Shown here: in pieces, positions 1 to 44,037 of the stretch
Numbering within the stretch: position 1 is the stretch's first letter
Layout of the letters: the number at the start of each line of letters is the position of its first letter
DNA from: a virus
Virus record (IMG/VR): IMGVR_UViG_3300027881_000022
Coordinates: 1 to 46,113 of that record
Length of the DNA: 46,113 bases
Direction: 5' to 3' (one strand)
Position numbers and translations under genes: made by a program
Notes under the pieces: generated by a model
Told to the model about the DNA's origin: nothing
Seen by the model: the letters and a program-made list of their open reading frames with translations, nothing else
Databases searched by the model: none

Positions 1-1835
1 CATGCAAAGATCTCAATCTGACCCACCTCGATTGCTGGGTCTGTTGAATAGTCATCAACAGTGGTTCCTGAGATTCCACTCACTGACAGAACCGCAGCCT
101 CTATGGCTGCAAGGGTTCCCTTGGCAGCTGCTGTTGTTCCACTCTTCACCCTTACCTTGTAGTTATCATCGGTCTCGACATCTGCACCATCAATGAACTG
201 GTTGTACCACGTATAGTCCAACAGAAGATTGGCTGCATCGAAGAGAGGCCATAACAACTCAAGAGAGTCACCGTCTACAACATATTGGTATGCGGTTCCA
301 GCTCCTGCAGTCTCTTTTGGCACATATCCGAACCTTACATTCTTGGTGCCATCTGATCCATAAGTTGTTTCCCAATCTCCAAGATCTGTATTGGTGTATG
401 AATAGTAAGTCCTGTCGTATTCACTACTGATGCCAGTAGCCTCAGATCGTGTCCAGCTGCTAGTGTCATCACTCCATGATCCAGCACTGTACACCTGCAC
501 TGTGTCGTATGCATCATCAGTGGCAAAGAGAGAGGTGAACCCAGAATCAACCCTGTCTCCTACTGCCTGACCAACGGAATCACCTACAATGTAGTTTGCT
601 GATGGACACTCTATTCTTACTGTCCTAGTGTCAAGTCCGCCACTCGGACCGGAGAATGTGATGTAGTAAATATACGTGAACTGGATAGAACTGGTTAGAG
701 GACCGACTTCTGCGGTGAAATCAACAGTGTCTGATGCATTGTCACCCTCTCCTGCAGAGTATCCAACAATAGTCATGGTTCCTGTCCAACTGGCACTCAG
801 TGTAGCGGTGACGGTGCCTGCACTTGATGGCTGATCCATCCACCCCCTGATGTCCTCATTCTCTACCTCAATGGCCTTGCCGTCTGAATCCTTATCCACA
901 AACCCGCTGCTGTCTACTGTGTGTGGTAGAGTAAATACCTGTTGTGTGCCAGTACCAACCACTGAGATGTCTGATGCATCAAATGACAGTGGATTTGTTA
1001 TGTCCGTGATCACACTGTTCGCGTTCACGTTCTTTGTGATGGCATTTGCTGACACATTCCCTGATGTTCCGGGTGAGGTCGCTTGTACTGGGATCCATTC
1101 TTCTCCGTAATGATCGCTTGTGGCGTCTGATACCGTTGCTGCTGTCTCTGTGTTGTCGATCTGAGCAGAAACCGTGGTTTCAAACACTGCTGGAGATTCC
1201 CCAGTGGTGCCAACCTGAGTGCCTACTGGTATGGTGACTATGCCTGCTGTGAGGTTGGTTGGTCTTGCCATGGTCACGTACCCTGTTGTGCTTATTGCGT
1301 CATTCCTAGTGACACTGACAAGTTCTCCCAACTCATCAAGTTCAAGACCATCAGCAGAGTCAATGAAACTGTCTCTTGCTATGTCATTGAGCTTGAGTTC
1401 TGTATGTCTTACCTGCAATGCAAACGCATCAATGATCGTCATGAGCACAGATCCGGGATTTATGTCAGTGAGTCCACTTGGAATCACCATGTACCGATAG
1501 TCCACGTAGAACACAGTGGTGTCGTCAGGATCGTCACCTGCTGGACTCCAAGATATGCTGTCATAGTAGCCATCACCTGTCTCGTCTACCAGAACATAGT
1601 CTGCCTCTGCTGCGAACTCTGTTGATATGCCATCCTGTATTCCTATCACCCTGATGACATCATAGACCTTCTTAATTGACGTGTAATCACATAACAGGGT
1701 GTAAGATGAGGTGCCGCTGATGAATGTGATGGGTTCTCTCCATACTGGTCTGTAACCATCAACGATCTGTTCCTGTATCTGTAATATGATCTCTTCTGTT
1801 GTTCGTAGGTTTGCTATCTCATAATCTTCGCTCAT
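1..1835 (-). CDS. Baseplate J-like protein (3' end beyond window)
   Basis: The frame stays open from ATG at 1835 to the window edge (611 codons), so the C-terminus is missing. The N-terminal part (MSEDYEIANL) precedes a region with an ELDELGELVSVTR-type segment. Near residue 580 there is an ETDDNYKVRV segment followed by KGTLAAIEAAVLSVSGI, the signature of the baseplate J family. In phages these proteins form the outer wedge of a contractile-tail baseplate. The middle (about residues 200-450) is long and beta-rich, more than in Mu or P2 gpJ, so an inserted domain is likely. The start follows AGGTGTGACC. It lies 3 nt after the gp25-like gene, the usual W-J order. Confidence 0.85.
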   Translation of the reverse strand, partial: MSEDYEIANLRTTEEIILQIQEQIVDGYRPVWREPITFISGTSSYTLLCDYTSIKKVYDVIRVIGIQDGISTEFAAEADYVLVDETGDGYYDSISWSPAGDDPDDTTVFYVDYRYMVIPSGLTDINPGSVLMTIIDAFALQVRHTELKLNDIARDSFIDSADGLELDELGELVSVTRNDAISTTGYVTMARPTNLTAGIVTIPVGTQVGTTGESPAVFETTVSAQIDNTETAATVSDATSDHYGEEWIPVQATSPGTSGNVSANAITKNVNANSVITDITNPLSFDASDISVVGTGTQQVFTLPHTVDSSGFVDKDSDGKAIEVENEDIRGWMDQPSSAGTVTATLSASWTGTMTIVGYSAGEGDNASDTVDFTAEVGPLTSSIQFTYIYYITFSGPSGGLDTRTVRIECPSANYIVGDSVGQAVGDRVDSGFTSLFATDDAYDTVQVYSAGSWSDDTSSWTRSEATGISSEYDRTYYSYTNTDLGDWETTYGSDGTKNVRFGYVPKETAGAGTAYQYVVDGDSLELLWPLFDAANLLLDYTWYNQFIDGADVETDDNYKVRVKSGTTAAAKGTLAAIEAAVLSVSGISGTTVDDYSTDPAIEVGQIEIFA

Positions 1836-26335: not shown

Positions 26336-26811
26336 TACTTATCATCTCCCTTGTAGAAACTGGCATATTCCGCAGCCATTGGATGATCGGAGTTTCGACG
26401 CATCTTAGCGACGACCCTCTTTGCTTCCTTGGCTGGTGGGGGTAGTCCGAAGACTGCCTCACGGAGCCATGCCTTAGCCTCTTCCACTGTGATCTGATTT
26501 GGGGCACGTGTCTCAGAATCTGTGGCTATTGCTCCCTTAGACTCAGGCTTTGGTTTCTGCACTTTGAGCCTGTTCTTAATGGAGGATTCCAGAAGTTCAA
26601 GAGCCTCTTTTGGTTGTGCAGAAAGCTCTTCAATTCTTTTGTCCGAGTCCTTGATGTACCGTTCTTCAAGTTGGACTTCCGCTTCAGCGATCCCAGTAGC
26701 AATCCTTCGCCTTTCTCGGGCATCGGACTCACCGAGTTTCGCTTCAAGCGATTCGATCTGTTCCTCAAACTTTGAGGTGTCGATCTCTGGTTGGGTGTCT
26801 TGTTCAGACAT
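26335..26811 (-). CDS. Nested scaffolding protein (internal start)
   Basis: An in-frame ATG at residue 301 of the protease gene (MSEQDTQPEIDTSK) is preceded by a strong site GAGGTAAT 3 nt upstream of the ATG (26815-26822). The 158-residue product is a coiled coil with a basic C-terminus. Nested scaffold genes inside prohead proteases are known from lambda (Nu3 inside C) and Mu. Excess scaffold over protease would be made this way. The start is called from the RBS and from where the coiled coil begins. Confidence 0.75.
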   Translation of the reverse strand: MSEQDTQPEIDTSKFEEQIESLEAKLGESDARERRRIATGIAEAEVQLEERYIKDSDKRIEELSAQPKEALELLESSIKNRLKVQKPKPESKGAIATDSETRAPNQITVEEAKAWLREAVFGLPPPAKEAKRVVAKMRRNSDHPMAAEYASFYKGDDK

Positions 26812-33369: not shown

Positions 33370-33527
33370 GAGACTATGCACACACCACCATATTCAGGTT
33401 CGTCAGGATCTTCGCAAGACTCATTGTAGATCTACAAGAGATAGGAGTATCAAAGAGAGCAATTGACAACATCCTTGAGATACTGTCCAAAGACCTGATC
33501 CGATACATGAAGGAGGACTTTGCATGA
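33366..33527 (+). CDS. Small hypothetical helical protein
   Basis: 53 residues, beginning MRDYAHTTIFRFVRIFARLI. It overlaps the zinc protein by 4 nt (ATGA) and the radical SAM gene by 4 nt, so it fits the operon exactly. Predicted mostly helical, basic in the first half. Function is unknown. Confidence 0.65.
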   Translation: MRDYAHTTIFRFVRIFARLIVDLQEIGVSKRAIDNILEILSKDLIRYMKEDFA

Positions 33528-34477
33528 AAATACTGATGGTCGATGCTGACTCAGTGAATGGGTTCCCCAACCTTGCACTCATGAAGCTCTCTGCTTACCA
33601 CAAGGGCAAGGGCGACAAAGTAGATCTGATAGTTGGAGTACCAGAGGTAGCACCTCTGTTCGAGTACGATCATACCTACATATCATGCATATTCTATCAG
33701 AACAAGGACAGGGTGATGGCATACTTCAACCAGTTTGAAGACCAGAAGGTGTGGGCAGGAGGAAGCGGACTCAACATGAAGAAGACCCTCCCAACCTATG
33801 TCGAGCACCTGATGCCAGACTACACCCTATACCGCACTGGCTTTTCCATGGGCTTCACATCCAGAGGATGCATCAGGAAATGCAGGTTCTGTGACGTGCC
33901 AGAGAAAGAGGGCAAGATCCACGATCACGCCCCCATATCAGAGTTCCACCATCCCAAGCACAAGAAGGTGGTGCTACTGGACAACAACTTTCTGGCATCA
34001 CCAAGGTGGCAGGACACCCTGCAGTACATCATAGACCATGATCTGAAGGTGAACTTCTGTCAGGGTCTGGACATCAGACGGATGACGAGGATGCGGGCGA
34101 AGTTCCTGCACAAGGTGCAGTACTACAACTGGACATTCAGCAGACGGGGACTGCACTTTGCATTCGACCATCCAAGCCACCACCACTCTGTGGAGAACGG
34201 TCTCAAGATCCTTAACGACGAGGGCATCAGGCCGTACAGGTGCATGTTCTATGTGCTTGTGGGCTTCAACACCACTCCAGAGCAGGACATGTACAGGATA
34301 CAGCTGCTGAAGAAGCTGGGGGCAAAACCATTCGTCATGATCTACAACAGGAACAAGGATCACGAGTTGCGACGACTGGCAAGATGGGTGAACGGGAGAT
34401 TTCACGAGTTCCTGCCATATGACACATTCAAACTAGAGGGAGAACATCATGAAGTACATACTAGAGATATGTTATGA
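33524..34477 (+). CDS. Radical SAM protein
   Basis: 317 residues. The cluster-binding motif is C116-x3-C120-x2-C123 in SRGCIRKCRFCDVPEKEG, which holds the 4Fe-4S that cleaves S-adenosylmethionine. A strand-loop LLDNNFLASPRWQDTL and a later FYVLVGFNTTPEQD region fit the partial TIM barrel. Similar radical SAM proteins occur in many tailed phages with unknown substrate; tRNA or DNA base modification is one idea. The first 100 residues (KILMVDADSVNGFPNLALM) resemble the N-terminal segment of B12-binding radical SAM proteins, without a recognisable cobalamin motif. It overlaps the preceding small gene by 4 nt. Confidence 0.85.
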   Translation: MKILMVDADSVNGFPNLALMKLSAYHKGKGDKVDLIVGVPEVAPLFEYDHTYISCIFYQNKDRVMAYFNQFEDQKVWAGGSGLNMKKTLPTYVEHLMPDYTLYRTGFSMGFTSRGCIRKCRFCDVPEKEGKIHDHAPISEFHHPKHKKVVLLDNNFLASPRWQDTLQYIIDHDLKVNFCQGLDIRRMTRMRAKFLHKVQYYNWTFSRRGLHFAFDHPSHHHSVENGLKILNDEGIRPYRCMFYVLVGFNTTPEQDMYRIQLLKKLGAKPFVMIYNRNKDHELRRLARWVNGRFHEFLPYDTFKLEGEHHEVHTRDML

Positions 34478-35610: not shown

Positions 35611-35831
35611 TGGACATGCCGGAGAAGAAGATGGACATATTCACCTTTAGAATCCTTACCACATGCTGGAACTGCGACACGGAGTACAACATGATCGTCA
35701 GAGAGGTCAAGCAGTACCACCATGCATCAGGCAGGTGCCCAGAGTGCAATGCCAACCAGCAGATCGTGTTCAGGATACTGCAGATGGGCAAGGAGACGCC
35801 CCCCATCAAGGGATGGAAGGCAAGGGGATGA
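35610..35831 (+). CDS. Zinc-ribbon protein
   Basis: 73 residues from ATG at 35610, which overlaps the previous stop; longer readings upstream are the previous gene in another frame. C19/C22 (CWNC) and C43/C46 (CPEC) give a classic ribbon with a 20-residue loop. It overlaps the next gene as ATGA. Function is unknown. Confidence 0.7.
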   Translation: MDMPEKKMDIFTFRILTTCWNCDTEYNMIVREVKQYHHASGRCPECNANQQIVFRILQMGKETPPIKGWKARG

Positions 35832-36124
35832 CCATGGGTAGTGGTAGTGCGGGACACCTGAAGTCCTTAGCAGAGGTTGACCGCAACCACATCGCCAGCA
35901 AATGCATGGAAGTGGTGATGGAACAACTGGTGAGGTCACGCGACGGCCAGTACGTCACCAGCATGAAGGCGATCAGCAAGAAGGTGGCACGGTTCTTCGG
36001 CCTGCGAGTGTCAGGCGGCTTCACCACCATCATCAGACAGACCCTTCTCCATACCACCCACCCACACCTCACAGTGGAATGGTTCGACGACAGACACACC
36101 CTGCTAGAAATATCTCGGCGGTAA
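35828..36124 (+). CDS. Small helical protein, possibly winged helix
   Basis: 98 residues from ATG at 35828 (ATGA overlap). The order of helices and a possible two-strand wing (SKKVARFFGLRVSGGFTTII, LTVEWFDDRHTLLEI) suggests a winged-helix DNA-binding fold. It is the last gene of the plus operon. The repeat-rich region at 36.18-36.27 kb lies just beyond its stop, so it could be the protein that binds there; this is inference. Confidence 0.6.
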   Translation: MTMGSGSAGHLKSLAEVDRNHIASKCMEVVMEQLVRSRDGQYVTSMKAISKKVARFFGLRVSGGFTTIIRQTLLHTTHPHLTVEWFDDRHTLLEISRR

Positions 36125-36184
36125 TATCAGCGGGTCTTGGGAGAAAATTTTCTGTAAGGGGTAGCCCTTAGTTTCGACGATTGT

Positions 36185-36270
36185 CTAATCTATTCGCTCG
36201 GTTTCTAATCAAATGCTTATTTCATCGATTAGACATATGCCTAATCAAATGACTATCTAATAGATTAGAT
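36185..36270. repeat. CTAATC repeat region, operator- or origin-like
   Basis: Six CTAATC-type elements lie in 86 bp: CTAATC at 36185, CTAATCAAATG at 36205-36215 and again at 36241-36251, inverted GATTAG at 36227-36232, and a near-palindrome ATCTAAT-AG-ATTAGAT at 36255-36270. The segment is AT-rich in an otherwise gene-dense stretch. Spacing of the two 11-bp direct copies is 36 bp. It could be an origin iteron set or a regulator binding array. Confidence 0.6.
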
Positions 36271-36310
36271 GAGAGTCTATAAGTTTAGCCCCCTATGATA
36301 TACCCGAAAA

Positions 36311-36341: not shown

Positions 36342-36590
36342 ATGCAAGAACTGACCGACCAACTAGAAAGCGCGGGACTCGACAGCCAAGATTGCCCGAT
36401 GATGGACTGCTTCGGACACCTCAACTTTATTCCCACAAACGCACTGTTCAAGTGCTCAGTCTGTGGTGAGGTGTTCCCCACAACCAAGGCCATGAGGGAG
36501 TGGGCTAAGACCAACCGCGAAGTGAAGGCAGCAGTTGCCTTCATGCTGGCTGAGGACAAGGCCAAGGCTGAAGAGGTGCACTACGAATGA
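36342..36590 (+). CDS. Zinc-ribbon protein
   Basis: 82 residues. Ligands C18, C23, C38, C41 (DCPMMDCFGHLNF, FKCSVCGEVF) form a zinc ribbon; the remainder is a charged helix ending EEVHYE. Probably translated from a leaderless mRNA. Function is unknown; the next gene overlaps as ATGA. Confidence 0.7.
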   Translation: MQELTDQLESAGLDSQDCPMMDCFGHLNFIPTNALFKCSVCGEVFPTTKAMREWAKTNREVKAAVAFMLAEDKAKAEEVHYE

Positions 36591-37103: not shown

Positions 37104-37197
37104 ACCCCTCTTTCTTCAGGCTGATCCGCCGCACCCCAGTAGGGCGGATTCAGATCAAAATTTCCGATCAAACCTGTAATAATAAACCCCCCCTTAT

Positions 37198-37216
37198 GTA
37201 TGCCCCCTATGTATCG
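37198..37216 (+). repeat. 19-bp direct repeat, copy 1
   Basis: GTATGCCCCCTATGTATCG occurs here and again at 38093-38111, 895 bp apart. Both lie in intergenic DNA downstream of minus-strand genes. Shorter relatives (TATGTAT) occur at about 39022, 40630, 42620 and 43648. Confidence 0.65.
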
Positions 37217-37239
37217 AGGATCAGTAGCAGTGAGTGGAT

Positions 37240-37272
37240 GCAAAATAAAAGTGTGGGGCGGACTGGCCGCCC
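37240..37272 (-). terminator. Intrinsic terminator for minus gene 37272
   Basis: On the minus strand GGGCGG-CCAGT-CCGCCC (37256-37272) follows the stop of the small minus gene directly and is followed by CACACTTTTATTTTGC (U-rich, to 37240). Confidence 0.6.
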
Positions 37273-37466
37273 TATGGTTTATGATACATGTTGATACCAG
37301 CCGTGATAAGCCTACCACCAACATCAATGACCTGATTGCCACGAGTGGAAAAATCAATCAGGGTCTTGCCGCTGGCGGAGGGCTTGGGCTTGGCAGCGAA
37401 CATGATGACAAGCGTCACACCGACCACCTTGCCTGACTTTACGATTGCTTCGTGTGTCATGCTCAT
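37272..37466 (-). CDS. Small protein on the minus side of a bidirectional promoter
   Basis: 64 residues from ATG at 37466, chosen because the promoter (TATA at 37500-37508) and the GAGTTTGG leader lie just upstream; readings further upstream would use promoter DNA. The start is MSMTHEAIVKSGKVVGVTLV, followed by a basic stretch (AAKPKPSASGKTLIDFSTR). No family is recognised. It diverges from the gene at 37567 across a shared operator. Confidence 0.7.
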   Translation of the reverse strand: MSMTHEAIVKSGKVVGVTLVIMFAAKPKPSASGKTLIDFSTRGNQVIDVGGRLITAGINMYHKP

Positions 37467-37499
37467 GTTAACCAAACTCAATATACCATACTCCCGAAG

Positions 37500-37546
37500 A
37501 CATATAAACCTATCACTCGGAGAAACCGAGTGAGACATTGATATGC
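37500..37546. promoter_or_regulatory. Bidirectional promoter, operator copy 1
   Basis: The operator ACTCGG-AGAAA-CCGAGT (37515-37531) is flanked on each side by exactly 6 bp and a TATA box. The minus TATA is TTTATATGT (37508-37500) and the plus TATA is TTGATATGC (37538-37546). It drives minus gene 37466 (leadered, GAGTTTGG) and plus gene 37567 (leaderless, 26 bp). Confidence 0.8.
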
Positions 37547-37566
37547 TTTCAAGTCATAGTACATAC

Positions 37567-37821
37567 ATGACCGACCAGAAAACTATCGGAGTTGATGAGG
37601 TGCAAGCCGCCATCGACCTAGAGGTTTCTGTTCTCAAGCAGGCAATCGAACTGGTTGTTGATAGCTTGGCTGGCATGTCTGAGCACATGAACGCCCAGTT
37701 CAACAGACAATCAGACGCCATCAGGGAAATGCAAGAGAAGCACAACGCTCTTGGCAAGATGGTGATTGGCTTGGTGGAGGCAACCGAGGCAGCCTTCAAG
37801 TCACTTGACTGCTTGGAATAG
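37567..37821 (+). CDS. Small helical protein
   Basis: 84 residues from ATG at 37567, 26 bp from the TATA centre. It is mostly one amphipathic helix (AAIDLEVSVLKQAIELVVDS, REMQEKHNALGKMVIGLV), so oligomerisation is likely. Longer upstream readings pass through the promoter. It could be a regulator or structural protein; function unknown. Confidence 0.65.
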   Translation: MTDQKTIGVDEVQAAIDLEVSVLKQAIELVVDSLAGMSEHMNAQFNRQSDAIREMQEKHNALGKMVIGLVEATEAAFKSLDCLE

Positions 37822-37845
37822 GGGGGCAACCCCCACACCCTTTTT
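37822..37845 (+). terminator. Intrinsic terminator after gene 37567
   Basis: GGGGG-CAA-CCCCC (37822-37834) followed by CACACCC and TTTTT (37841-37845). The G-stem starts right after the TAG stop. Just after it lies the RBS of the next small gene, so some read-through or a processed mRNA is likely. Confidence 0.65.
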
Positions 37846-37860
37846 ATTGGAGGTGAAAAA

Positions 37861-38004
37861 ATGACCGAGATCGAAATTGACCTATGCCCAGACTGCCGAC
37901 TCTTCAGCAATGGCTTTTGCCAGCAAGAGGACATCAGCGAGGATCAGAAGTACGACTCTGATATCATGGTGGATGAGTGTGTGCACCATGAACCCAAGGC
38001 CTGA
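37861..38004 (+). CDS. Small zinc-finger peptide
   Basis: 47 residues with cysteines C9, C12, C20 and C40 (LCPDCRLFSNGFC...DECVHH) and several histidines, so probably a compact zinc finger. It has a strong site GGAGGTGA before the ATG. Similar short cysteine peptides lie at 39687, 40069 and 45913. Function is unknown. Confidence 0.7.
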   Translation: MTEIEIDLCPDCRLFSNGFCQQEDISEDQKYDSDIMVDECVHHEPKA

Positions 38005-38020
38005 TCCTATGACAGGCCAC

Positions 38021-38053
38021 TTTTTTTTTCTCCTTGATCTGAAAGTCAGATCA
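38021..38053 (+). terminator. T9 tract and GATC hairpin
   Basis: A T9 tract (38021-38029), typical of archaeal T-rich termination, follows the small zinc gene. It is followed by a hairpin TGATCTG-AAAGT-CAGATCA (38035-38053). The hairpin is one of a family in the intergenic regions here. Confidence 0.6.
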
Positions 38054-38092
38054 GGCGCGGTCATGATCAGGCGATCACGGGGGGCGATCTAA

Positions 38093-38111
38093 GTATGCCC
38101 CCTATGTATCG
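38093..38111 (+). repeat. 19-bp direct repeat, copy 2
   Basis: Second copy of GTATGCCCCCTATGTATCG (first at 37198-37216). Its right part forms a small hairpin CCTATG-TATCG-CATAGG (38101-38117) in the 3' flank of the minus gene at 38123. Confidence 0.65.
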
Positions 38112-38115
38112 CATA

Positions 38116-38135
38116 GGTAGGTCTAGGTACCTACC
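38116..38135 (-). terminator. Hairpin at the 3' end of minus gene 38123
   Basis: GGTAGGT-CTAGGT-ACCTACC folds over the stop codon of the minus gene. No U-tract follows on the minus strand, so 3'-end protection is more likely than strict termination. Confidence 0.5.
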
Positions 38136-38302
38136 TCCTTGTAGATGTACCACAGTCCATATTTGCCATCCTCGACACCAGCAGTGACACGCACTATCCG
38201 ATGGTCAGGCTTGTGGGGTGCAAATGTCCATCCATCAAACTCGAACAAGACGAACACTTCAGTCTCGCCCTCATCTTCCATGGCTCTCATAAAAGTCTTC
38301 AT
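38123..38302 (-). CDS. Small protein on minus side of operator copy 2
   Basis: 59 residues, acidic then aromatic-rich: MEDEGETEVFVLFEFDGW, then TFAPHKPDHRIV and YGLWYIYKEVGT. Start at 38302, about 25 bp from a TTTAATTAG TATA box. The TTCGGGAGTATG block is present between box and start. No family is recognised. It diverges from the zinc protein gene at 38390 across operator copy 2. Confidence 0.7.
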   Translation of the reverse strand: MKTFMRAMEDEGETEVFVLFEFDGWTFAPHKPDHRIVRVTAGVEDGKYGLWYIYKEVGT

Positions 38303-38322
38303 ACCTAAACATACTCCCGAAC

Positions 38323-38369
38323 CTAATTAAATGGTTCACTCGGAAAAGACGAGTGATAGGTTTATATGC
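38323..38369. promoter_or_regulatory. Bidirectional promoter, operator copy 2
   Basis: Operator ACTCGG-AAAAG-ACGAGT (38338-38354, one mismatch). Both TATA boxes sit 6 bp away: minus TTTAATTAG (38331-38323) and plus TTTATATGC (38361-38369). Plus gene 38390 is 26 bp from the TATA centre (leaderless); minus gene 38302 has about the same distance. Confidence 0.8.
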
Positions 38370-38389
38370 ATTGGGGAGAATGATATACT

Positions 38390-38740
38390 ATGAGCGACAT
38401 GACCAAGATTCAAGTTCACGAGTTCCCGAAGTGTGACTTCTGCGGAGAGCCAGCACCCTTCGATGACAAGACCACCAAAGGACCATGGGCAAACATGTGT
38501 GCAGCACACCAGAGAGTCTATGGGTTCAACATTGGTTCAGAGAGAGAACTGATTGTCAAGAAGGCACCAGTCAAGGACTTCAAGGAGATACCAGTGGTTC
38601 AGTTGCCACTCACCATGAAGTCAGTGATAACAGCCAAGTGTCCATGGTGCAAGCAGAAGAGAAGAGTGGAGCCAGACGCGAACTACTTAGTGACCTGCGA
38701 GAGCTGCGAGAAGCCTTACAGGTTCAGGAGTGCAATCTGA
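38390..38740 (+). CDS. Protein with two zinc ribbons
   Basis: 116 residues. First ribbon: C15, C18, C37, H40 (CDFCGEPAPFDDK, MCAAH). Second: C84, C87, C103, C106 (CPWCKQKRRVEPDANYLVT, CESCEKPYRF). A strand-rich middle links them. Such two-ribbon proteins often bind nucleic acid or regulate transcription; this is inference. The transcript is predicted leaderless. Confidence 0.75.
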   Translation: MSDMTKIQVHEFPKCDFCGEPAPFDDKTTKGPWANMCAAHQRVYGFNIGSERELIVKKAPVKDFKEIPVVQLPLTMKSVITAKCPWCKQKRRVEPDANYLVTCESCEKPYRFRSAI

Positions 38741-38935
38741 ATGAACAGAGTCAAGAGATGGATACTCAAGAGGCTAGGGCTAATCCCCCTAGCAGAGATT
38801 GAAGAAGAGTTCGGTGTCACCCTCGACGGGTGGCATGAACCAGATGAGCCTGACTTCGACGAGGCGCAAGAGTGGGAGGACTTCGACCCGAGTTCGACCA
38901 TGGAGGCAATGTACGGCGGCGATGACGACTACTAG
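38741..38935 (+). CDS. Small protein, basic start and very acidic end
   Basis: 64 residues: basic N-terminal helix (MNRVKRWILKRLGLIPLAEI), then a strongly acidic tail (DEPDFDEAQEWEDFDPS). It follows the zinc protein stop without a gap, so translation is coupled. An acidic tail suggests a DNA mimic or partner-binding protein. Function is unknown. Confidence 0.6.
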   Translation: MNRVKRWILKRLGLIPLAEIEEEFGVTLDGWHEPDEPDFDEAQEWEDFDPSSTMEAMYGGDDDY

Positions 38936-38963
38936 GGGGGCTGATCCCCCAGCACCACTTTTT
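38936..38963 (+). terminator. Intrinsic terminator after gene 38741
   Basis: GGGGG-CTGAT-CCCCC (38936-38950), starting directly after the TAG stop, then AGCACCAC and TTTTT (38959-38963). Confidence 0.65.
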
Positions 38964-39075
38964 GATCTGAATTTAGATCAAGATCTTGATCGCCCATGAT
39001 CTCCCCACACATGGGGGGGATCCTATGTATGGTGTTATGTATGATCTAAGTAATGATCGTCGCAGGCGATCCGCC
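38962..39075. repeat. GATC-rich intergenic block
   Basis: About nine GATC sites in 114 bp, where less than one is expected. It includes the hairpin TTGATCT-GAATTT-AGATCAA (38962-38981) and a 16-bp perfect palindrome GATCAAGATCTTGATC (38976-38991). No coding frame is convincing. A divergent TATA box at 39083-39091 would transcribe it on the minus strand. Confidence 0.6.
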
Positions 39076-39082
39076 AGACCGT

Positions 39083-39129
39083 GTATATAAATGTGCAGCT
39101 CGGCAACACCGAGTGAAGGGTTTATATGC
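39083..39129. promoter_or_regulatory. Promoter, operator copy 3, with divergent TATA
   Basis: Operator GCTCGG-CAACA-CCGAGT (39098-39114). Plus TATA TTTATATGC (39121-39129) and minus TATA TTTATATAC (39091-39083), each exactly 6 bp away. The plus side has the TTCGGGAGTATGATATATT block and the GGAAGTTTGG leader before ATG 39165. No protein gene lies on the minus side. Confidence 0.8.
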
Positions 39130-39164
39130 TTTCGGGAGTATGATATATTAGGAAGTTTGGAATC

Positions 39165-39653
39165 ATGGCAGCAACAACACACGAATCATTTCATATGGGC
39201 GATGGAGACGAATACTTTTACGACAACCTGCATGAACAGGGCTATCTCTTGCTATGGAGACCAGCACCTTATCACTGGGTTGCAACACACATGAAGAAGC
39301 ACACCATCATAAGCTATACAGAGGGTGATGTGTCAGAGACTGCATACCACACATTAGAGGACTACATGAAAGGACTGCAAGAGACCAAGGACTGGTGGGT
39401 GAAGCATGAGGGCAAGAGTGCAAACCCAGTGCTGGCAGGATGTGCTGAGCCTTACGGGTTCCTGACTGGTGACCCAATCAACCTTAACCCTCCAAGGTGC
39501 AAGGTGTGCAACAGGCGCATGTACCCAGACAGCAACGGCGGCAAGTACAGCTGCCTGAGCAGGTGCAACCTCGAAGACTTGGGGGATCGCCTGAAGGCTG
39601 AGGGGGCAAGCGCAAAGGAGTATAATAAGCGCATACTCGGAGTTGACGAGTGA
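39165..39653 (+). CDS. Hypothetical protein with C-terminal zinc ribbon
   Basis: 162 residues. The N-terminal 90 are mixed alpha/beta with many aromatics (EYFYDNLHEQGYLLLWRPAP); the C-terminal ribbon uses C112, C115, C130, C134 (CKVCNRRMY, CLSRC). The last codons overlap operator copy 4 of the next gene. Leadered start with the GGAAGTTTGG element. Function is unknown. Confidence 0.7.
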   Translation: MAATTHESFHMGDGDEYFYDNLHEQGYLLLWRPAPYHWVATHMKKHTIISYTEGDVSETAYHTLEDYMKGLQETKDWWVKHEGKSANPVLAGCAEPYGFLTGDPINLNPPRCKVCNRRMYPDSNGGKYSCLSRCNLEDLGDRLKAEGASAKEYNKRILGVDE

Positions 39654-39666
39654 TAACATTATATGC
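39635..39666 (+). promoter_or_regulatory. Promoter, operator copy 4 (inside the 3' end of a gene)
   Basis: Operator ACTCGG-AGTTG-ACGAGT (39635-39651) overlaps the last codons of the upstream gene. Plus TATA-type ATTATATGC (39658-39666) lies 6 bp away; the next ATG (39687) is about 25 bp from its centre, so leaderless. A weak TTATTATAC (39628-39620) sits at the same distance on the minus side within coding DNA. Confidence 0.75.
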
Positions 39667-39686
39667 ATTCAGGAGTATGATATATT

Positions 39687-39815
39687 ATGACCGACGTTAA
39701 AACAACCTACCGATGCAGTGGTTGCCGATACCAGCAATGGATGGGCGAGACTGAGAACTGCTTGGACTGTGAGGACACCAGCATCTACGACAAAGGAGGA
39801 TGGGAACAAAAATGA
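39687..39815 (+). CDS. Small zinc-finger peptide
   Basis: 42 residues with C10, C13, C25 and C28 (RCSGCRYQQW, NCLDCEDTSI), a compact zinc ribbon. Start is leaderless, 25 bp from the TATA centre. It overlaps the next gene as ATGA. Function is unknown. Confidence 0.75.
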   Translation: MTDVKTTYRCSGCRYQQWMGETENCLDCEDTSIYDKGGWEQK

Positions 39816-40084
39816 AGCGAGTGTTCAGACACTCACGACCAGCCGAACAGGTTGGAATCGCTTGGACTTATGGCTCACTGAAAGACACAGCCATGATGTT
39901 CGATAAGGCAGAGGAACTTGACCGCCTACTGCAAGAGATTGTTGACAAAGTGAATGATGGCATCCTCAAGGATGAAGACGTGACCATCACCCTGAAGGCA
40001 GACGGTGTGATGGGTGGAACGATGACTGTGGAATGGGAAGAGATGACACAGATACAGAGGTTATGGCAATGGGTCAAGAAATAG
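39812..40084 (+). CDS. Small hypothetical protein
   Basis: 90 residues from the ATG at 39812 (ATGA overlap). N-terminal basic segment (MKRVFRHSRPAEQ), a helix (KAEELDRLLQEIVDKVND) and a strand-rich end (VTITLKADGVMGGTMTVEWE). An upstream in-frame ATG at 39800 is inside the previous gene. No family is recognised. Confidence 0.65.
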   Translation: MKRVFRHSRPAEQVGIAWTYGSLKDTAMMFDKAEELDRLLQEIVDKVNDGILKDEDVTITLKADGVMGGTMTVEWEEMTQIQRLWQWVKK

Positions 40085-40200
40085 CATGGGCAGCCCTGCA
40101 CTGGGAGCAGGGGTGCTATGGCTGTAAGTATGCCGACAAAGATCAACTTGGCAAAGGACCGGCCTGCACTCGATCCCCGCCCAAGTGCCCTGATAAGTAG
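40069..40200 (+). CDS. Small zinc-finger peptide
   Basis: 43 residues with C16, C19, C33 and C40 (GCYGCKYADKDQLGKG, ACTRSPPKC). Overlaps the end of the previous gene by 16 nt; GAGG is about 8 nt before the ATG. A start two codons earlier (40063) is possible. Function is unknown. Confidence 0.65.
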   Translation: MGQEIAWAALHWEQGCYGCKYADKDQLGKGPACTRSPPKCPDK

Positions 40201-40203
40201 GTA

Positions 40204-40235
40204 GCTCGGTAGAGCCGAGTAGAAAGTTTATATGC
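40204..40235 (+). promoter_or_regulatory. Promoter, operator copy 5
   Basis: Operator GCTCGG-TAGAG-CCGAGT (40204-40220), 6 bp, then TTTATATGC (40227-40235). The TTCGGGTGTATGATATAGT block and a GAGGAAGACAAC leader precede ATG 40268. The minus side has only a weak TATA-like match. Confidence 0.75.
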
Positions 40236-40267
40236 CTTCGGGTGTATGATATAGTGAGGAAGACAAC

Positions 40268-40501
40268 ATGACAAAGATGTATATCGAAATCCAACTCACC
40301 AACGCCCATGCGGACAAGTTGGTGAAAGACAACCTCAGTGATGAGTTCAGTAAGAAGTTCATCAGAGGGGAGAAGTACACGGACATCAGATTCGGACCAT
40401 TGGAACTTGAACCACATGAGTCTGATAAGGTGAGAGACGCATTGGACTTCATCATTGGTCTCAAGCCAAGAGGATACATGCTTACAAGCAAGCCCTACTG
40501 A
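40268..40501 (+). CDS. Small hypothetical protein
   Basis: 77 residues, mixed strand and helix (MYIEIQLTNAHADKLVKDNL, FGPLELEPHESDKVRDALDF). No metal motif. Leadered start. Its stop codon lies in the loop of a terminator hairpin that ends at the tRNA. Function is unknown. Confidence 0.65.
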   Translation: MTKMYIEIQLTNAHADKLVKDNLSDEFSKKFIRGEKYTDIRFGPLELEPHESDKVRDALDFIIGLKPRGYMLTSKPY

Positions 40502-40525
40502 GAGAGTAGGGTGCTCAATTTTTTT
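40493..40525 (+). terminator. Intrinsic terminator ending at the tRNA 5' base
   Basis: Stem CCCTAC (40493-40498) / GTAGGG (40506-40511), then GTGCTCAA-type spacer and T7 (40519-40525). The next base, 40526, is tRNA position 1. The stop codon of gene 40268 is in the hairpin. Confidence 0.7.
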
Positions 40526-40601
40526 CGGGGTGAGGTCAGATGGCACTGACGGTGGACTGTAAATCCACTCGAAGCAGGTTCGATTCCTGCCACTCCGACC
40601 A
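40526..40601 (+). tRNA. tRNA-Tyr (GTA), CCA encoded
   Basis: All four arms fold: acceptor CGGGGTG / CACTCCG (one G-U), D stem GTCA/TGAC, anticodon stem GTGGA/TCCAC with loop CTGTAAA (anticodon GTA), and T arm GCAGG-TTCGATT-CCTGC. Discriminator A, then CCA is encoded (40599-40601). C1:G72 is the archaeal and eukaryal tyrosine identity pair, against G1:C72 in bacteria. No intron. It would let the virus supply its own Tyr tRNA. Confidence 0.95.
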
Positions 40602-40690
40602 CGTGATCGTCGCGCGAGATCTTAGGTATATGTATCTGATCTGCGGCGGATCAGATCAGGCGCGAGCCATGGCGGGATCGCCCCGCGAGT
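40602..40690. repeat. GATC-rich intergenic block after the tRNA
   Basis: About six GATC sites in 80 bp, with a hairpin CTGATCTG-CGGCGGAT-CAGATCAG (40636-40659). TGATCGTCGC is shared with the block before 39083. A divergent TATA (40701-40693) would transcribe it on the minus strand, towards and antisense to the tRNA. Confidence 0.6.
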
Positions 40691-40692
40691 GT

Positions 40693-40739
40693 GTATATAA
40701 ATCCTTCACTCGGAAAAGCCGAGTGAGAAGTTTATATGC
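40693..40739. promoter_or_regulatory. Promoter, operator copy 6, with divergent TATA
   Basis: Operator ACTCGG-AAAAG-CCGAGT (40708-40724). Plus TATA TTTATATGC (40731-40739) and minus TATA TTTATATAC (40701-40693), each 6 bp away. The plus side has TTCAGGAGTATGTTATAGC and a GGAGTTTGG leader before ATG 40776. The minus side has no gene beyond a 4-codon frame at 40670. Confidence 0.8.
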
Positions 40740-40775
40740 GTTCAGGAGTATGTTATAGCATAGGAGTTTGGAACA

Positions 40776-41342
40776 ATGCCCGAGAAATCAGACTATCAGA
40801 AATACTGGGAAGAGATGAAGACCAGAGCACATCAACTCAGCAGAACCTTCAAGCGTGAGGTGCAACCATTCGAGGTTGGCAACACCGATGAGTACGATGG
40901 TAAGAGGGTCAACTGCAAGGGTTGGGAGATGGACCATGGCTACATCAATCAGAACCTATACGATGAGATGGGAGAGGTTGACGCAGCAGCTGATTACATC
41001 CTTAAGATAATCAAGGACGGTCCTCAGTGTCACTACTGCATCTGGAACGATGGCGGTCCAAGGTCATGTGTGCACCCTCAGATAGATGACTGCAAGCATG
41101 AGAACGTGAAGGTGGAAGTAGTGTGGACACTTGACATGATGAGGGTATCACTGTTCAGAGGAATGACATGGGGGAAAGACCCAAGCTTCACAGGCATGAT
41201 TACCCTTGAGAAGCCAGTGTCCTTCGATGGCACCCGCAACAGAGTGTACAAGGTGACCTGCGAGAAATGCAACAAAGACCTGCCACTGCACACGATAGAC
41301 TCCGACATGATAACAGCATTCGAGGATGAGTACGATGAGTAA
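40776..41342 (+). CDS. Protein with split zinc motif (CxH...CxxC family)
   Basis: 188 residues. Cysteines cluster in two regions: C85, C88, C98, C106, H108 (CHYCIWNDGGPRSCVHP, CKHEN) and C162/C165 (VTCEKCNKDLPL). The pair CxH and later CxxC with a 50-residue strand region between them recurs in genes 44038, 44564 and 45291. Leadered start with GGAGTTTGG. A regulatory or nucleic acid-binding role is inferred. Confidence 0.7.
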   Translation: MPEKSDYQKYWEEMKTRAHQLSRTFKREVQPFEVGNTDEYDGKRVNCKGWEMDHGYINQNLYDEMGEVDAAADYILKIIKDGPQCHYCIWNDGGPRSCVHPQIDDCKHENVKVEVVWTLDMMRVSLFRGMTWGKDPSFTGMITLEKPVSFDGTRNRVYKVTCEKCNKDLPLHTIDSDMITAFEDEYDE

Positions 41343-41673: not shown

Positions 41674-41716
41674 TTTATAAGCCTAGGGGAGTATAGTATA
41701 GTAGGAAGTTTGGAAC
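41674..41716 (+). promoter_or_regulatory. TATA promoter without operator for gene 41717
   Basis: TTTATA (41674-41679), the GGGGAGTATAGTATAGT block, then GGAAGTTTGG and ATG 41717 (about 40 bp from the TATA). No ACTCGG operator, so expression may differ from the operator set. Confidence 0.7.
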
Positions 41717-41923: not shown

Positions 41924-42266
41924 AATCCTTACCAAGTGGAGCGCCATGCCTGTCTGGGTAGACAGGCTGACCAAGGCAATCATTGTCGATTGGCATGGCA
42001 CTGAGGTCATAGCTGGCAAGGCTGTCTTCAGTGATGAGGCTGACACTTGGATGTTTGAAGAGTCTGATGGACTTGAGAACTGCCGCACCCCTGATAGCAG
42101 GTACACCATGTCAGATGAGATGGACAGTGGACTGCATGAAGAACTGGATGTGGCAATCAGCGAGAATCAGGGTGACTGGTTCAACGGATGGGTGGATGGC
42201 ACCTTCGTGGGTAGCCCATCAAAACTGCTCATGGGAGCAGACATGGATATGGGAGAGGATGAGTAA
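41913..42266 (+). CDS. Small acidic hypothetical protein
   Basis: 117 residues with a basic start (MRVRILTKWSAMPVWVDRLT), then acidic with Trp-rich strands (ENQGDWFNGWVDGTFVGSPS). No family is recognised. Its stop overlaps the next start as TAATGG. Confidence 0.65.
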   Translation: MRVRILTKWSAMPVWVDRLTKAIIVDWHGTEVIAGKAVFSDEADTWMFEESDGLENCRTPDSRYTMSDEMDSGLHEELDVAISENQGDWFNGWVDGTFVGSPSKLLMGADMDMGEDE

Positions 42267-42514
42267 TGGGTAACACAGACTGCCCTTGGTGTGAGGGTGA
42301 CGGACATGAAGAGGACATGGAACGGCTTGACTCTGACTTTGAAAAGGCACTAGACACTGCACTTGAAAAGGTAGACACTCTCAGTGCTGGAGTCGAGAGA
42401 GGCTGGCAAGAGGTTGGTGAGTGTGAAGAGTGTGGAGCCGCTTGGATAAGTGGTGAAGCAACAGTATCATTCCAAGTCATCACCAAGAAAGGAAAGGACA
42501 GCCTGAAAGTATAG
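42266..42514 (+). CDS. Zinc-ribbon protein
   Basis: 82 residues. C6/C9 (DCPWCEGDG) and C53/C56 (ECEECGAAW) flank a helix of about 40 residues. The ribbon with a helical insert is unusual. Function is unknown. Confidence 0.7.
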   Translation: MGNTDCPWCEGDGHEEDMERLDSDFEKALDTALEKVDTLSAGVERGWQEVGECEECGAAWISGEATVSFQVITKKGKDSLKV

Positions 42515-42547: not shown

Positions 42548-42611
42548 GCCGATCTTGATCGTCGATCTGGATTCCGAACTTCTATACGTCTTAGGTAAGA
42601 TCGAGATCGGC
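42548..42611. repeat. Long inverted repeat rich in GATC
   Basis: Arms GCCGATCTTGATC (42548-42560) and GATCGAGATCGGC (42599-42611) match at 12 of 13 positions with a 38-bp interval. Between gene 42266 and the promoter at 42643. It may be an RNA hairpin or a protein binding site. A 39-codon frame through it is not convincing. Confidence 0.55.
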
Positions 42612-42642
42612 ACCCCTTGCTATGTATCCTCAAAACTCAATG

Positions 42643-42687
42643 TTTATATGGCTTCGGGAGTATAATATATGTAGGAAGTTTGGTAAA
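42643..42687 (+). promoter_or_regulatory. TATA promoter without operator for gene 42688
   Basis: TTTATATG (42643-42650), TTCGGGAGTATAATATATG, then TAGGAAGTTTGG before ATG 42688 (42 bp). No ACTCGG operator. Confidence 0.7.
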
Positions 42688-43668: not shown

Positions 43669-43998
43669 ATGATGGATCACATTTCTAAGTATGCTGAGCT
43701 AAGGAGACTTTTGGTAGACCCAATGACCCGAGATCGGGCAATGGTACCAGTTGAAGCTCCTTTTGGTCAAGTCAATGACCTGAAAATCGCAATGCTCTGG
43801 GAGAGGCGGTGTGTATGTGGTGAGGGGGGGAGTGGTGGTTCACTGTCGGGAATGAGGGTTGTATCTGGGTTATGGCGCGGAAAGTACATGCATTCGCAAA
43901 GTGAAGCCGACTGGAGTGCAATATGTATATACATATTGTCTTCCACTCGGTGCTGGACATCGTATGCAAATCTGAACATGCATTCGCAATGTTTATAA
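43669..43998 (+). CDS. Small protein of uncertain extent
   Basis: 109 residues from ATG at 43669, placed after GAGGTGACC. The first 50 residues (MMDHISKYAELRRLLVDPM) look like a normal helical protein. From residue 52 the composition changes: a G7 run, CVCGEGGSGGSLSG, then codons that cross a 20-bp palindrome and the TATA box of the next gene. The C-terminal half may be a relic or a frameshifted end. Confidence 0.4.
   Translation: MMDHISKYAELRRLLVDPMTRDRAMVPVEAPFGQVNDLKIAMLWERRCVCGEGGSGGSLSGMRVVSGLWRGKYMHSQSEADWSAICIYILSSTRCWTSYANLNMHSQCL
43886..43989. repeat. Palindrome and direct repeats upstream of gene 44038
   Basis: Perfect 20-bp palindrome CAATATGTATATACATATTG (43919-43938), flanked by two copies of ACATGCATTCGCAA at 43886-43899 and 43976-43989. 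The right copy ends 2 bp before the TATA box of gene 44038. Looks like an operator array. Confidence 0.65.
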
Positions 43999-44037
43999 GG
44001 ATTCGGGAGTATGATATAGTAAGGAAATTTGGCAATC
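43992..44037 (+). promoter_or_regulatory. TATA promoter for gene 44038
   Basis: TTTATA (43992-43997), TTCGGGAGTATGATATAGT, then AAGGAAATTTGG before ATG 44038 (about 43 bp). No ACTCGG operator; a palindrome and repeats lie upstream instead. Confidence 0.7.

Follow-up and report, generated by a model that had tools for sequence, protein, structure and literature searches.

Repeated operator and promoter modules ahead of small genes in a putative tailed archaeal virus

Six operator dyads in the putative early region

The IMG/VR virus record IMGVR_UViG_3300027881_000022 contains a series of repeated modules, each consisting of a 17-bp inverted repeat (the operator dyad) followed by an archaeal-type promoter. 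We analysed the whole record (46,113 bases, here called the window). The minus strand codes for tail sheath, portal, capsid and baseplate proteins, and the plus strand for a helicase, a radical-SAM protein, a tRNA-Tyr and many small proteins. The nearest matches, all at low identity, were haloarchaeal tailed viruses for the portal, HGTV-1 for the capsid protein and Sulfolobales viruses for the helicase. Because the best-annotated matches of all three proteins were in archaeal viruses, we read the record as a tailed archaeal virus, in agreement with the archaeal setting assumed in an earlier note on this DNA. No large terminase was recognised among the proteins of the record, which may therefore be incomplete.

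Six 17-bp dyads of the type ACTCGG-N5-CCGAGT lie within 37515-40724, each at the position given in the earlier note. Listed without strand, they are copy 1 (37515-37531, ACTCGG-AGAAA-CCGAGT), copy 2 (38338-38354, ACTCGG-AAAAG-ACGAGT), copy 3 (39098-39114, GCTCGG-CAACA-CCGAGT), copy 4 (39635-39651, ACTCGG-AGTTG-ACGAGT), copy 5 (40204-40220, GCTCGG-TAGAG-CCGAGT) and copy 6 (40708-40724, ACTCGG-AAAAG-CCGAGT). The consensus previously proposed, ACTCGG or GCTCGG followed by N5-CCGAGT, describes copies 1, 3, 5 and 6, but the right half of copies 2 and 4 reads ACGAGT (one mismatch each). At its 3' end, an open reading frame (ORF; 39165-39653) includes copy 4. When the core CTCGG-N5-CCGAG was searched for with at most one mismatch, the window gave seven matches against 0.72 expected in shuffled sequence, and none of 100 shuffles reached seven. 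The seventh match, at 26722, has no TATA box.

The surroundings of the dyads have features of their own. Spacers rich in GATC, in which small hairpins and TATGTATC motifs are present, occur at 37130-37230, 38030-38110, 38960-39080, 40600-40690 and 42550-42615, and operator copies 1, 2, 3 and 6 each have one of them to their left; genome-wide, GATC is about twice as frequent as a simple expectation (374 observed, 180 expected). The tRNA-Tyr (GTA) gene (40526-40601) lies between operator copies 5 and 6.

A shared core promoter in fixed register

A plus-strand TATA box starts exactly 6 bp past the operator in all six copies, as the earlier note had stated. The TATA sequence TTTATATGC occurs four times in the window, each time at this position. 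Since TATA-like 7-mers occur at only about 2.8e-4 per position in the window, a register shared by six of six copies is not due to chance. Between the TATA box and the gene start we found a further conserved element, TTCGGGAGTATGATATA, which the earlier note had overlooked; all complete promoter arms have this element or a near copy of it downstream of the TATA box.

We built a 27-column promoter matrix spanning the TATA box and the downstream element, trained it on nine of the 11 sites found, and scanned the 46-kb window. Exactly 11 sites stood above background (scores 43.4 to 11.2, with the next site at 6.0), namely all plus arms (six), the minus arms of copies 1 and 2, and three promoters without an operator. 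The plus core promoters of copies 2 to 6 (plus strand; 38361-38387, 39121-39147, 39658-39684, 40227-40253 and 40731-40757) kept scores of 35.9-41.6 when each was left out of the matrix. The three operator-free promoters of the same family, also missed previously, are on the plus strand at 41674-41700, 42643-42669 and 43992-44018, with in-sample scores of 33.9-40.6; operator-bearing cores thus score as high as operator-free ones. Because a single matrix finds both kinds, we regard the operator as an add-on to the standard promoter of this virus. Upstream of the TATA box, the transcription factor B (TFB) recognition elements (BREs) of the plus arms have G at -6 in 5/6 and A at -3 in 5/6, the two letters of the published rule for a strong BRE (PMC11065993).

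Two further repeats accompany the operator-free promoter at 43992. Upstream of it, 43907-43950 is a 44-bp imperfect palindrome with 18 of 22 positions paired, the best in the window (20 shuffles gave 14-16). It ends in the half-operators CCGACT and ACTCGG, each 6 bp from an AT-rich core CAATATGTATATACATATTG, and so resembles the operator module turned inside out. The direct repeat ACATGCATTCGCAAWGT is present at 43886-43902 and 43976-43992, 90 bp apart, and its second copy ends at the TATA box of this promoter.

The earlier note described the modules as bidirectional promoters, with a minus-strand TATA box 6 bp before operators 1, 2, 3 and 6. Copies 1, 3 and 6 do have a strong box there, ranking within the best 0.02% of window positions; that of copy 2 (TTTAATTAG) is degenerate and falls within the best 1.9%, and copies 4 and 5 have none. 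By the matrix each operator has only one complete arm. In copy 1 this is the minus arm (37482-37508, with TATA box and downstream element; score 36.9, rank 8 in the window), and the plus arm (37538-37564) is weak, with the TATA sequence TTGATATGC, no downstream element, and a score of 13.0 in sample and -9.9 when left out. In copy 2 the plus arm is complete, and the minus arm (38305-38331; score 11.2) combines the degenerate TATA box with a retained downstream element. The minus boxes of copies 3 (39083-39091) and 6 (40693-40701) have neither a downstream element nor an ORF. The bidirectional reading is therefore supported by divergent ORFs together with promoter elements only in copies 1 and 2, and shared two-way control in 2/6 modules.

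Copies 1 and 2 are divergent gene pairs, each with one strong and one weak arm. From copy 1, the minus arm leads to an ORF of 64 aa (37272-37466, minus; ATG at +42 from the TATA start) and the plus arm to one of 84 aa (37567-37821, plus), for which one long helix is predicted. Copy 2 serves an ORF of 59 aa (38123-38302, minus) and a zinc-ribbon-like ORF of 116 aa (38390-38740, plus). The remaining genes, all on the plus strand, are of 162 aa (39165-39653, from copy 3), 42 aa with two CxxC pairs (39687-39815, copy 4), 77 aa (40268-40501, copy 5) and 188 aa (40776-41342, copy 6). The ATG lies at exactly +29 from the TATA start, the leaderless position, for plus arms 1, 2 and 4 and for minus arm 2. 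The weak arms of copies 1 and 2 each lead to an ATG at exactly this distance, which speaks for their being genuine. In the other complete promoters the ATG is found at +41 to +46. Most of the leadered genes, and none of the leaderless ones, have a 5' leader element resembling TAGGAAGTTTGG before the ATG (39148-39160, 40758-40772, 41701-41713, 42670-42682 and 44019-44032). The small CxxC proteins encoded at 38390-38740 and 42266-42514 show sub-threshold similarity to the Lar restriction alleviation protein (E 0.0028 for 38390-38740).

Identity among the copies was 91% for the dyad halves, 93% for the TATA box and 69% for the downstream element, against 43% for the N5 core, 48% for the 6-bp linker and 26% (background) beyond +70, with no insertion or deletion. 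Fresh or chance duplication of the modules was rejected, as the linkers have drifted while the elements and their spacing were kept, and for the same reason the fixed spacing is probably under selection. The earlier proposal that several promoters share an operator abutting the BRE at fixed spacing is supported. A distance of 11 bp, or about one helical turn, separates the half-site centres of the 6-N5-6 dyad, which is what binding by a protein dimer would call for. With a transcription start at the leaderless ATG, the dyad would span -52 to -36 (centre -44), with the BRE between dyad and TATA box. Where a copy has two arms, 17 bp separate its BREs, so that one bound dimer would abut both.

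No close relative turned up in the collections searched, with tools that may leave out near-identical records: IMG/VR gave no match for the operator-TATA and core promoter DNA patterns, and no relatives with the helicase, capsid and winged-helix protein (see below) as queries. The radical-SAM matches were rejected as relatives because only this gene was in common; the protein (33524-34477) also occurs in unrelated viruses, among them viruses of Methanomassiliicoccales and of Bacteroides. A portal alignment gathered 56 viral and three genomic loci at 18-25% identity, and these had operator-like matches without a TATA box in register, or no such matches. Since structural genes make up most of what these loci cover, they offer no test of operator conservation.

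A candidate regulator and the likely mode of control

We propose that the six modules are virus-specific early promoters with a shared operator, through which a dimeric regulator would act by repression, and put the probability of this reading at roughly 0.5. The modules would be the promoters of an early-gene regulon with one common core, consisting of BRE, TATA box, TTCGGGAGTATGATATA and a start at about +29. A dimeric DNA-binding protein would read the 17-bp dyad directly upstream of the BRE and, once bound, would block loading of TFB and TATA-binding protein (TBP) at the neighbouring BRE. When enough regulator had been made, the strong early promoters would be switched off together; in copies 1 and 2 one operator would serve a divergent gene pair, and the three operator-free core promoters would escape this control. 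The sequence itself shows the dyad, its fixed register, the conserved core, the copies that lack an operator, the divergent ORFs and the leaderless ATG positions; that a protein binds the dyad, which protein this is, that it represses and that the genes are early are what we infer here. The genes behind the modules, short ORFans some with CxxC motifs, fit an early role. We favour repression over dependence on an activator because the operator-bearing cores are strong, and consider a repressor the more likely form of the predicted dyad-binding factor. Archaeal-virus precedents are mostly repressors, such as SvtR and F55 (PMC5569661), and the early regulatory sequences of SMV2 have inverted repeats at the BRE that were attributed to a repressor (PMC11065993).

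The suggestion that the regulator is virus-encoded has one candidate, a 98-aa protein predicted to adopt a winged-helix fold (35828-36124, plus) and encoded close to where the helicase gene block ends. A single-sequence AlphaFold2 model (predicted local distance difference test score, pLDDT, 81.6; predicted template modelling score, pTM, 0.72) had the order H-E-H-H-E-E of a winged helix. Winged-helix chains, including RepE54, CtsR and ORC, were prominent in the Foldseek and VIA lists, with E-values above 0.01 and a best Z of about 8. In a profile search of 40 mostly early-side proteins, no known regulator family was recognised among the families listed (25 of 36 at E 0.05). The C2H2-like protein at 36342-36590 was rejected as a regulator because it has no clear second ligand pair, and the 84-aa product of copy 1 because it is one long helix with no obvious basic region. 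P0001, also looked at as a regulator, had no PDB relative by sequence.

The winged-helix ORF adjoins iteron-like repeats (36205-36269) unrelated to the dyad. The region 36184-36273 contains repeats of the form CTAATCAAATG...GATTAGA, of 29 nt and spaced 36 bp apart, together with the perfect inverted pair TCTAATCTATT/AATAGATTAGA, and is a possible origin or second operator.

Several points weigh against repression by occlusion. The operator stands beside the BRE and not over the TATA box or the start site, and in archaea a site immediately before the BRE is often an activating one, for example those of GvpE (PMC4390858), TrmBL1 (PMC4706686) and TFB-RF1 (PMC5937170). An exact 6 bp in every copy is not needed for occlusion. 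The winged-helix protein is a candidate only and may bind the iteron-like repeats instead; since its ORF lies next to them, origin binding is equally possible.

These points lead to the strongest alternative, which we hold to be possible and less probable, namely that the operator is an upstream activating sequence (UAS). A dimer bound to it, at about -52 to -36, would bring in TFB or TBP, and would do so both ways in copies 1 and 2. The exact register shown by all copies is what a contact with TFB would need. GvpE elements abut the BREs of two divergent promoters and depend on a short distance between UAS and BRE (PMC4390858), TrmBL1 activates from upstream sites through a 6-N5-6 dyad (PMC4706686), and the TFB-RF1 site TCTG-N5-CAGA lies just upstream of the BRE (PMC5937170). 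Activation of the TFB-RF1 type, however, has been described at weak BREs, whereas most BREs and TATA boxes here are strong; the operator-free cores are equally good, with no visible need for an activator; and no GvpE-like or TrmB-like protein was among the families listed (25 of 36 at E 0.05, for the 40 proteins), nor was a TrmB domain.

The earlier note had also proposed that a factor on the operator would touch two TFB sites at once. In copies 1 and 2 such contact could occur only with both arms in use simultaneously. That a single virus-encoded dimer touches TFB and BRE of two back-to-back promoters and couples their firing, as a two-way switch copied across the early region, seems to us unlikely.

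Binding of the dyad by a host regulator, the virus having captured a host regulon signal, is less likely again. Archaeal hosts do use 6-N5-6 dyads, as in the TrmBL1 motif, and the dyad binder on the virus side is a candidate; yet the module recurs at short intervals, is specific to this genome and has a core promoter of its own, so that it looks like a signal of the virus. An exact match to the core promoter pattern was absent from a genome collection of 84,980 species. Action of the dyad as RNA (a hairpin, or a terminator for the gene before it) or as a boundary at which gene cassettes recombine is very improbable: the dyad can form a 5-6 bp stem, the dyads lie between small-gene cassettes (some adjoining the GATC-rich spacers) and cassette shuffling would put copies before unrelated genes, but copy 4 keeps its register inside the end of an ORF, copies 1, 3 and 6 have TATA boxes in register on both strands, no T run follows the dyads, the linkers have drifted without insertions or deletions, and Rfam matched only tRNA and so does not support a structured RNA. 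Stem-loops at early promoters of T4-like phages would be comparable to such an arrangement.

Comparison with described systems and meaning for early-gene control

The closest kind to our module is the virus-specific early-gene (anti-defence gene) regulatory sequence of SIRV2, SMV2 and others, in which many small single genes are each preceded by a near-identical BRE/TATA core set in a sequence specific to the virus (PMC11065993). The present genome likewise has a conserved sequence around this core before several genes (11 promoters found by one matrix), and BRE and TATA box are strong. It differs in belonging to a tailed virus, in a dyad that abuts the BRE where the SMV2 inverted repeats overlap it, in a second conserved element downstream of the TATA box, and in that one operator can serve two directions. 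The viruses named in that work are rudi-, lipothrix-, bicauda- and fuselloviruses (PMC11065993), and a text search of it for Caudoviricetes or haloarchaea gave no match.

Within tailed viruses the closest match is the class I repeats of HF2, a tailed archaeal virus, which are repeated modules of an upstream motif (alpha), BRE, TATA (beta) and a downstream element (gamma) in fixed spacing; all were shown to be promoters, firing mainly one way with some activity the other way as well (PMC8707807). The same layout of upstream motif, BRE, TATA box and downstream initiation element is repeated here. When we extracted and compared the HF2 repeats, however, their alpha, beta and gamma motifs differed from the present module, with no sequence in common, and alpha is at best an imperfect dyad.

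For the shared upstream element, the divergent haloarchaeal gas-vesicle promoters PA/PD controlled by GvpE are closest, since there too the elements (activator elements) abut the BRE at a critical distance and a short stretch controls opposite promoters (PMC4390858). PA/PD have two overlapping 20-nt 8-N4-8 elements with BRE-TATA units 35 bp apart (PMC4390858), whereas we found one shared 17-bp 6-N5-6 dyad with BREs 17 bp apart. TrmBL1 (TATCAC-N5-GTGATA) and TFB-RF1 (TCTG-N5-CAGA) also use N5 dyads upstream of BRE/TATA in activated genes (PMC4706686, PMC5937170). The 6-N5-6 layout of TrmBL1 is alike, but the letters of both sites differ from ours, both proteins are host regulators, and the BREs are weak for TFB-RF1. 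The operators of SSV1 F55 and SIRV1 SvtR resemble the arrangement proposed here in that virus-encoded regulators occlude several viral promoters; the repeats recognised by F55 are tandem ones lying over the BRE/start site, and the main SvtR site is about 80 nt from the promoter elements (PMC5569661). Both are ribbon-helix-helix proteins; none was recognised here among the families listed at E 0.05, and short proteins of this kind can escape profile searches.

The earlier note knew of no described archaeal virus element with this geometry. The exact geometry is indeed absent from the literature searched, but GvpE, SMV2 and HF2 provide close published analogues. The novelty lies in the detail, in the letters, in the use of one shared 17-bp dyad and in the downstream element paired with it; the general kind has already been described.

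Regulation in archaeal tailed viruses is poorly known, and for HF2 the promoters have been mapped with no factor assigned. A single genome here offers matched promoters with and without an operator, strong and weak divergent arms, leaderless and leadered starts, and a candidate winged-helix factor. Because these occur together, the matched set of modules makes this genome a ready test case for early-gene control in an archaeal virus. It also flags a group of small uncharacterised genes as likely early, and possibly anti-defence, genes in a tailed virus.

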